A DNA stretch of 35,009 nucleotides from an uncultured Candidatus Saccharibacteria bacterium. GTDB lineage: Bacteria; Patescibacteriota; Saccharimonadia; Saccharimonadales; Saccharimonadaceae. Location of the stretch: positions 1 to 35,009 of the forward strand of contig CAMZBA010000009.1 of the NCBI GenBank assembly GCA_947304395.1, in the 5' to 3' direction. Shown piece by piece: positions 16,612-19,776 of this stretch. The position numbers were made by a program, and so were the translations under genes. Within the stretch, counting starts at the first letter, position 1; each line of letters opens with the position of its first letter. The notes under the pieces are model-generated. The model worked only from the letters and a program-made list of their open reading frames with translations, was not told the origin of the DNA and searched no databases.

Positions 16612-16640
16612 TTGACAAAAATACAAAATTTTGATATAAT
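16612..16640 (+). promoter_or_regulatory. Promoter of the metallophosphoesterase gene
   Basis: TTGACA (16612-16617), 17-bp spacer, TATAAT (16635-16640), with TG at 16632-16633. This is a near-consensus promoter giving a leader of about 24 nt with GAGAGGAG. Confidence 0.88.
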
Positions 16641-17443: not shown

Positions 17444-17452
17444 TGCTACAAT
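17444..17452 (+). promoter_or_regulatory. Extended -10 of the aldolase fusion gene, leaderless type
   Basis: TGC followed by TACAAT (17447-17452), six bases, then ATG 17459. There is no Shine-Dalgarno sequence. Confidence 0.6.
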
Positions 17453-17458
17453 AAAAGC

Positions 17459-19300
17459 ATGAGCAACATTTTGATTGTTGGCAATATCACGAAAGACGTT
17501 TATCTGCGCCTCGATAATCGCCAAAACAAATTCGAGACCGACCAGAACGATATCAAATGGCTAGATTTCGCTTTTGACGGTTCCACGCATAAATATTACA
17601 ACCGTGTCTCCATTTTTGGCGGCGCTAGCATCAGCCTAGAAGTATTGACGCGTTTTGGGCTAACCGCCGAAATTGCAAATACCTCAGCGAAGTTCCTAGA
17701 TGGACAATTTATCGTCAAAGACACCAATATCGTTTATCGATATATTCTTTGCCAAGACCGCCACGTCAGCTATCTTAGCCCTAGCAACTACAAACAAACC
17801 ACCTGGGAAATTCCCAAAGAAAGCGTCGACTGGATCTACGCCGACCGCAGTGCCAGCATCTCGCCAAAACTTGCCGAAGAACTCATCGAATATCTAAATC
17901 TAAATCACCAGAGCAAATTAGCATTATTCGTCGGCAAATATAGCAACGTTAACGCCAATCATATGCGCGAACTCATCAATCGCGCCAGTATCGTTATTAC
18001 AGACACAAAGCTCAATCAAAATGTCGAAAACTTAGTTGTCATTACGCCACATCATATTGAATATATGGGCAAACGCGTTCGCTGGCAGCTCGAAGATCGT
18101 CAAGACCTCATGACGCATCTTAGCTCACATCTAACCATTGGCGCCTCTGTTTTCGGCGCACTTGTACTTGGGAAAGATGTTGACGAAGCTTTACTTCTAG
18201 CGCGCGCCAACATCGAACGCTCAATCCTAAGCTCTAGCTCTAACATCTCAACACTCGAAGAAGAAATATCCGACGATTTCTATCGCGTCGAAAAACACAA
18301 TCCAAAGGAGGATAAAATGCTTGAAGTAGAATCTAACGCAAAAAGACTAGTTTCCGAAGGCCGCGGCATCCTCGCCGCCGACGAATCCGGCGGTTCTATC
18401 CATAAGAAATTTGAAGGCATGAACATTCCCGACGACGAGCAACATCGTCGCGATTATCGAAATCTTTTCTTTACTACTCCGGATCTCGAAAAATTCGTTA
18501 ATGGCGTTATTCTTTTCGACGAAACCGCCCGCCAGCAATCCGATGACGGTCGCGATTTTGTCACATTCTTGGCCGACAAGGGCATTCTGCCTGGCATCAA
18601 AGTAGACCAAGGCCTTGAACCTATTGATGGCACTGACGAAAAATACACCAAAGGCCTCGATGGTCTATCAGATCGCCTCGCCGAATATTACCAAATGGGC
18701 GCCCGCTTCGCAAAATGGCGCGCCGCTTTCGAAATAACCGATCATAGTCCTAGTCAAATGGCAATTCGCAAAAATGCCGAAATTCTTGCCCAATACGCAC
18801 TTGACTGCCAAAACGCTGGCATTGTGCCAATTGTGGAACCAGAGCTAGTCTACGATGGCGATTACCCAATCGAAAAGAACATAGAATTTACTGGGCAAAT
18901 TCTTGATGCCTTGTTTGAAGAGCTTAAGAATAAAAACGTCAGTCTACCAGGCTGTATCCTAAAAGTTAACATGGTGCTTGCAGGCAAGCGCTATCATACA
19001 CAGTCCACCCCAGCCGAAGTAGGCAAAGCCACTGCCGACGTACTAAAGGCACACGTTCCGAGCAACCTTGCCGGCGTAGTCTTCCTTAGCGGCGGTCAAA
19101 GTGTCACGCAAGCTACCGATAATCTTCAGGAGGTCACCAATAACGGTCCATTCCCATGGCCAGTCACCTTCTCGTTTGCGCGCGCACTCCAAGATCCCGC
19201 GCTTAACGCCTGGAAAGGGAATAACGAGAACGCCGATGCGGCTCGTGCCGGTTTTCGCGAGCGCCTCGTCGCCAACTGCGAAGCCCTAAAGCGCAAATAA
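17459..19300 (+). CDS. PfkB-like (degenerate kinase) domain fused to class I fructose-bisphosphate aldolase
   Basis: One open frame of 613 codons. Residues 1-285 have the ribokinase/PfkB fold signature (ILIVGNITKDVYLRL, GGASISLEVLTRFGL at 54-68, LVVITPHHIEYMGK). However, the catalytic block that should read like TNGAGDAF is LTIGASVFGA, with Ser230 where the base Asp belongs, so kinase activity is doubtful. Residues 287-613 are a class I aldolase, which splits fructose 1,6-bisphosphate into two triose phosphates. It shows GRGILAADESGGSI, KVDQGL, GARFAKWRAAF, PIVEPELVYDGDYP and LKVNMVLAGK, where Lys502 is the expected Schiff-base residue. A perfect AAAGGAGG site precedes Met287, so free aldolase may also be made. 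Translation of the full frame begins at ATG 17459, six bases after a -10. A strong terminator follows. Confidence 0.9.
   Translation: MSNILIVGNITKDVYLRLDNRQNKFETDQNDIKWLDFAFDGSTHKYYNRVSIFGGASISLEVLTRFGLTAEIANTSAKFLDGQFIVKDTNIVYRYILCQDRHVSYLSPSNYKQTTWEIPKESVDWIYADRSASISPKLAEELIEYLNLNHQSKLALFVGKYSNVNANHMRELINRASIVITDTKLNQNVENLVVITPHHIEYMGKRVRWQLEDRQDLMTHLSSHLTIGASVFGALVLGKDVDEALLLARANIERSILSSSSNISTLEEEISDDFYRVEKHNPKEDKMLEVESNAKRLVSEGRGILAADESGGSIHKKFEGMNIPDDEQHRRDYRNLFFTTPDLEKFVNGVILFDETARQQSDDGRDFVTFLADKGILPGIKVDQGLEPIDGTDEKYTKGLDGLSDRLAEYYQMGARFAKWRAAFEITDHSPSQMAIRKNAEILAQYALDCQNAGIVPIVEPELVYDGDYPIEKNIEFTGQILDALFEELKNKNVSLPGCILKVNMVLAGKRYHTQSTPAEVGKATADVLKAHVPSNLAGVVFLSGGQSVTQATDNLQEVTNNGPFPWPVTFSFARALQDPALNAWKGNNENADAARAGFRERLVANCEALKRK
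18304..18319 (+). promoter_or_regulatory. Internal ribosome binding site and ATG for free aldolase
   Basis: AAAGGAGG (18304-18311) lies five bases before an in-frame ATG (18317, codon 287), exactly at the boundary of the aldolase domain. This predicts a second product of 327 aa, the normal length for class I aldolase alone. Confidence 0.7.
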
Positions 19301-19324
19301 TTAACAGGACTTTCATACCATTTA

Positions 19325-19355
19325 AAACCGCATTCTTTACAGATGCGGTTTTTTA
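19325..19355 (+). terminator. Rho-independent terminator of the aldolase gene
   Basis: AAACCGCAT (19325-19333) pairs with ATGCGGTTT (19343-19351), with a run of T after it. Confidence 0.92.
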
Positions 19356-19488: not shown

Positions 19489-19776
19489 ATGGGCAAAGTA
19501 ATCATTTCACTTGTAGTTGGTGTCGGCTTTTTCATTGCAGGAATGATCGTCGCCAAAATCACGAACGGTCTTACCAGCCGCAACAACGGCCATGGCTACA
19601 ACGACGATGGCGGCTACGACGATGATGACTATGACAGCGAAGACTACGAAGACGACGAAGACAACGACGAAGGCGGCGAAGAGGAAGAGGAGGAATACTT
19701 CTACGACGAACACCTGACAATTGGTGACGAGGAAGGTATTACGGATTATTTCGGAGTACGACACATTGATCACTAA
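19489..19776 (+). CDS. Membrane-anchored, highly acidic small protein, 95 aa
   Basis: Residues 4-24 form one hydrophobic helix (VIISLVVGVGFFIAGMIVAK region), followed by a polar Asn/Gly stretch. Residues 38-71 are almost all Asp, Glu, Gly and Tyr, then comes a short mixed tail with HLTIGDEEGI. No Cys or lipobox is present, so the first helix is probably an uncleaved anchor, but which side the acidic part faces is not clear. No family is recognised. A divalent-cation or basic-protein binding surface would suit the composition; this is inference. The start is backed by AGAGGAGGG. It is a single-gene unit with a promoter and a terminator. Confidence 0.8.
   Translation: MGKVIISLVVGVGFFIAGMIVAKITNGLTSRNNGHGYNDDGGYDDDDYDSEDYEDDEDNDEGGEEEEEEYFYDEHLTIGDEEGITDYFGVRHIDH

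Follow-up and report, generated by a model that had tools for sequence, protein, structure and literature searches.

The gene described here lies in a window of 35,009 nucleotides, the whole stretch of DNA analysed, from a Candidatus Saccharibacteria genome of ~ 1.02 Mb in 23 contigs. Positions 17459-19300 of the forward strand form a single open frame of 613 codons. In agreement with the preliminary description of this DNA, AAAGGAGG is found at the boundary between the two encoded domains and is followed by ATAAA and an in-frame ATG, i.e., at proper Shine-Dalgarno (SD) spacing. The features of the locus and the evidence for them are as follows:

17444-17452, forward strand: extended -10 element TGCTACAAT of a predicted leaderless promoter, ending 6 nt 5' of the outer ATG (sequence)
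17459-18304, forward strand: PfkB/ribokinase-fold domain, residues 1-282, catalytically degenerate (AlphaFold2, Foldseek, motif loss)
18131-18133, forward strand: codon Leu225, at the position that the catalytic Asp of DRTGAGD occupies in intact relatives (alignments)
18304-18311, forward strand: internal SD AAAGGAGG (sequence; duplex -10.7 kcal/mol with an assumed anti-SD)
18317-18319, forward strand: internal in-frame ATG, codon 287, predicted start of a free aldolase of 327 aa (sequence, alignments)
18323-19297, forward strand: class I fructose-bisphosphate aldolase domain with intact active-site residues (PF00274, NF033379, conservation)
19324-19352, forward strand: intrinsic terminator 3' of the fusion gene

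The upstream gene, which encodes a yfcE-like phosphodiesterase and starts with TTG, has its own perfect promoter (TTGACA-17-TATAAT with TG before the -10; 16612-16640), so that the fusion gene probably forms a one-gene transcript. Downstream of the aldolase, positions 19489-19776 encode a small protein whose N-terminus resembles a membrane anchor and whose Asp/Glu tail is very acidic; its gene has a good SD.

The outer ATG (17459) has no SD, and a TACAAT -10 ends 6 nt upstream of it, as expected for leaderless mRNA. The mRNA is therefore predicted to be leaderless at this ATG, in line with the earlier view of the outer start; of the 45 same-genus loci, 37 carry a TA...T hexamer of the leaderless type at this place. 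Six loci (L010, L020, L022, L034, L146 and L149) have an SD at the outer start instead of the -10 and keep the internal start. In stretches L232-L251 of the present genome (G000), such hexamers lie 4-8 nt 5' of 28% of first ATGs vs 7% of internal ATGs, which suggests that leaderless genes are widespread in this Saccharibacterium. The named relatives retrieved by a profile search with the N-terminal domain were nearly all Candidatus Saccharibacteria MAGs, mostly from the rumen and the gut of other herbivores.

The two halves of the fusion protein

Both Pfam and NCBIfam place a class I aldolase at residues 289-611. The matches to PF00274 (E 4e-113, 378 bits vs a cut-off of 22.2) and NF033379 (405 bits vs a cut-off of 250) are full-length, and D308, K381, K419, E460, E462, K502, S544 and R575, including the Schiff-base Lys, are at least 90% conserved in the alignment; we take the catalytic positions to correspond to those of rabbit aldolase. 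Thus, as had been proposed, a full class I fructose-bisphosphate aldolase forms the C-terminal half, with all active-site residues common to this enzyme class, and cleavage of fructose 1,6-bisphosphate is predicted for it. In other families of the same taxonomic class, the close class I aldolases seen are stand-alone proteins of ~ 330-360 aa, whereas here the aldolase sits behind a PfkB-like domain.

Residues 1-282 matched nothing convincing in Pfam or NCBIfam, and a profile search of the PDB with this half returned weak matches only. An AlphaFold2 model of the domain built from 31 relatives (pLDDT 86, pTM 0.86) was matched by Foldseek to ribokinase-fold enzymes of the PDB (E down to 3e-10, prob 1.00), among them ketohexokinase, LacC, a Listeria phosphofructokinase and ribokinase. 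According to this model, the N-terminal half has the PfkB/ribokinase fold; the PfkB-like domain of the preliminary description is recovered by fold but not by a Pfam or NCBIfam profile. The N-terminal sugar-side motifs of PfkB/ribokinase-family sugar kinases (PF00294) are recognisable as well. In contrast to these kinases, the domain has lost the DRTGAGD catalytic motif, the NxxE motif and the ATP/nucleotide loop TDGPxG, and carries deletions of ~ 20-25 residues, as alignment with intact relatives shows. No sequence of genera g1, g27, g29, g42, g138 or g141 has the catalytic Asp, and NxxE and the ATP loop are also lost across these genera. Because of these losses, the N-terminal half is almost certainly not a phosphofructokinase. 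Its invariant residues are concentrated in the sugar-facing half (29 in the first 132 positions vs 6 in the remainder), and it is most likely a non-catalytic domain, which may retain sugar-phosphate binding. The model of the full-length fusion reached a pTM of 0.60, which is too low for domain contacts to be inferred.

Are both halves maintained? Where dS could be estimated, dN/dS was 0.01-0.1 in both of them, including the pair L067/L068 with a decayed aldolase half, a range indicating purifying selection on each half.

The predicted internal start at the domain seam

The internal ATG lies two residues ahead of the aldolase domain (residue 289). In related families, class I aldolases that stand alone begin at the corresponding point (-5 to -8 relative to the same profile position vs -5 here), with an ATG that is often preceded by an SD. 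In 343 kb of stretches of this genome, we found 983 internal in-frame ATGs; the SD at the seam is the strongest of them and the only one at -10.5 kcal/mol or below, while four reach -9.5. These energies assume the anti-SD, as a 16S search of the MAG detected no rRNA. If the whole genome has perhaps 3000 such ATGs, an SD of this strength alone could arise by chance, and it is the position at the domain seam together with conservation, not SD strength alone, that carries the weight for an internal start. Local RNA folding revealed no unusual structure that would hide or expose the SD (z 0.68).

The fusion is present in 44 of 45 same-genus genomes and the N-terminal domain in all 45. An in-frame ATG or GTG occurs at the seam in 37 of the 44 fusions and is absent from seven (L012, L015, L027, L151, L152, L030 and L032), as it is from nearly all fusions of g27, g29, g31, g42, g138 and g141. 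The preliminary description had asked for conservation of the internal site among relatives and named, as evidence against its use, relatives that keep the fusion and lose the site. Both occur: the site is largely kept and shows selection at the codon level within the genus, but the seven fusions and nearly all of those in the sister genera lack it. A free aldolase is thus not needed for retention of the fusion, and the start is dispensable.

At 35 distinct junction starts the mean SD energy is -7.1 kcal/mol, and 91% of them have an SD of -5 kcal/mol or stronger, vs 1.6% of 320 other in-frame ATG/GTG codons of the same ORFs; about half of the same-genus SDs reach only -5 to -6 kcal/mol. The amino acids of the Lys/Glu-rich linker by themselves predict an SD of about -3.7 kcal/mol. 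Codon choice at the junction departs from normal use. Lys-Glu is written AAGGAG in 11 of 16 cases at the junction vs 5 of 44 elsewhere, and Lys-Gly uses GGA in 11 of 12 vs 12 of 111. A synonymous null model gave a median p of about 0.09 per genome, a weak result, as SD-like bases are already favoured by the amino acids of the linker. Combined over 17 clades, which are related and not fully independent, it gave p 1.8e-5 with the mean p per clade and 2e-4 with the worst p per clade; only this combined form of the test is convincing. Moreover, the SD is read in either of two codon frames (AAG-GAG or AAA-GGA), indicating that the bases rather than the residues are conserved. Taken at the level of sequence, these data make a second start likely in this genus.

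Origin of the fusion and alternative explanations

The class I aldolase is nearly always fused in the family, and every family aldolase falls into one clade of the aldolase tree (bootstrap 100), sister to stand-alone enzymes. This topology fits a single fusion, and the fusion is ancient. The earliest branches are g31 and g151, whose fusions retain an intact GAGD motif; the remaining fused genera form a clade without it (bootstrap 98). It is therefore probable that an active kinase-aldolase came first and that the kinase was lost later. The earlier idea that the two halves catalyse consecutive glycolytic steps is not supported for the present protein, in which the kinase half no longer has the catalytic Asp, the NxxE motif or the ATP loop, but it fits the ancestral form still seen in g31 and g151. 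Fusions of a PfkB with intact DRTGAGD to a class I aldolase (669-708 aa) at L078 698-2749 and L156-L158 are candidate active kinase-aldolases. A different arrangement occurs at L074-L076, where 505-aa proteins consist of an N-terminal domain of ~ 165 aa of no assigned family followed by an intact PfkB kinase.

Several g27 genomes (L060-L063, L066-L069) keep the N-terminal domain with the aldolase lost or decayed, and no class II aldolase was found in the six g27 genomes checked (G229, G187, G197, G227, G163 and G211). In G002 (L039 2001-3837), the gene for a lone N-terminal domain shares 8 bases with that for a class II fructose-bisphosphate aldolase, which has a AAAGGAGG SD; judging from the sequences, an unrelated aldolase occupies the same place. 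Retention of the domain where the aldolase is lost or decayed, together with the low dN/dS, indicates that it probably does more than carry the aldolase.

The pattern of the internal start has to be weighed against other explanations. The fusion could be the sole product, with an SD-like sequence that reflects a linker rich in Lys, Glu and Gly and a Met that is a relic or has arisen by chance. The fusions without a start, seven in the genus and nearly all in other genera, and the SD energy predicted from the linker amino acids are what this account would lead one to expect; it does not explain why the start position is kept in most of the genus within a variable linker, why codon choice is biased exactly at the junction or why this SD exceeds those of all other internal ATGs surveyed. 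We consider it improbable, though deserving of serious attention. It is less probable still that the start dates from a time when two unfused genes formed an operon and has been retained since the fusion rather than gained later. The ATG of stand-alone class I aldolases at the same place, often with an SD, and the overlapping ATG of the class II aldolase in G002 agree with such an origin, but with a single clade of fused aldolases and other fused genera devoid of the start, it would require many losses. In the simplest history, the start arose at the base of the genus or close to it, and one clade-level and two single losses followed. Nor do we expect that the motif, placed as it is at a domain boundary, slows elongating ribosomes there and aids folding instead of serving initiation: the motif is accompanied by a conserved start codon at SD spacing, and fusions that lack this codon have weaker SDs (-4.5 vs -7.0 kcal/mol, p 0.004), which favours initiation over pausing and leaves pausing a slim chance.

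The least credible alternative concerns the N-terminal half, which might be an active phosphofructokinase channelling fructose 1,6-bisphosphate to the aldolase. Its PfkB fold, the same fusion with an intact DRTGAGD in g31 and g151, and the absence of the canonical phosphofructokinase (PF00365) from 23 of 24 genomes tested, this one included, are in its favour. So is TM7x, in which a PfkB (TM7x_02415) in an operon with a fructose-bisphosphate aldolase (TM7x_02420) has been proposed as the phosphofructokinase (PMC12815258). There, too, a PfkB-type kinase gene adjoins an aldolase gene in a Saccharibacterium; however, the TM7x genes are separate and the kinase is predicted to be active, whereas here they are fused and the kinase is degenerate. 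Against activity stand the loss of the catalytic residues across six genera and an intact second PfkB elsewhere in this genome, in an operon with GAPDH, rpiB and rpe. We regard an active kinase here as very improbable, and the domain should not be annotated as the missing phosphofructokinase of Saccharibacteria.

A predicted free aldolase from a pseudokinase fusion gene

The best reading of these data is that a derived, selected second start adds a predicted free aldolase to a pseudokinase-aldolase fusion. The gene would encode a PfkB-type sugar kinase that is catalytically dead (residues 1 to ~ 282), joined to a functional class I aldolase (289-611), and would be transcribed as a single-gene leaderless mRNA. 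Ribosomes at the 5' ATG would make the 613-residue fusion, and those recruited by the internal SD would start at codon 287 and make a complete 327-residue aldolase with an N-terminus of the stand-alone type. Aldolase oligomers would probably contain both free and fused subunits, so that the second start would set the number of pseudokinase arms per oligomer; the arm itself is probably a sensor or scaffold and not a phosphorylating enzyme. Taken as a whole, from the dead-kinase fusion and the leaderless mRNA to the used internal start, the mixed oligomers and the sensing or scaffolding arm, we hold this proposal to be somewhat more probable than its negation. A narrower version, in which the dead kinase is a sugar-phosphate-sensing arm of the aldolase, the two initiation modes on one mRNA set the ratio of arm-bearing to bare subunits, and the arm serves a further, separate function, is offered as speculation; the last element is suggested by the several relatives that keep the arm after losing the aldolase.

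Parts of this arrangement have precedents. Internal in-frame starts in infB, clpB and cheA give N-terminally shorter products with separable roles. A second in-frame start is likewise present in the gene for VirF30 and VirF21, and VirF21 is reported to be made from a leaderless mRNA (PMC5101355). As predicted here, one gene in each of these cases has a second in-frame start; the differences are that the shorter product would here be a whole metabolic enzyme and that the outer start is predicted to be leaderless and the inner one SD-driven, whereas in VirF it is the shorter product that is reported to come from leaderless mRNA. According to NCBI annotation, ribokinase-fold kinases are also fused to aldolases in NF047869 (IolC/DKGP aldolase) and NF041633 (KDPG aldolase/sugar kinase), but these involve other aldolase families and substrates and annotated kinases, as opposed to the degenerate one here, and, compared by model names, neither mentions an internal start. 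None of the papers covered by the literature search describes this fusion. Kinase-aldolase fusions and internal in-frame starts are already known, and what is new is that the two occur together, with a pseudokinase and mixed initiation modes.

For the family, the phylogeny provides an ordered series from a stand-alone kinase and aldolase through the intact-motif fusion (g31, g151) and the pseudokinase fusion to the internal start (g1), with other lineages in which the aldolase was lost or replaced and the pseudokinase kept. For the organism, if the internal start is used, one gene in a highly reduced genome would yield both a free glycolytic enzyme and a pseudoenzyme-tethered version of it, and the two modes of initiation on its single mRNA would determine their proportion.
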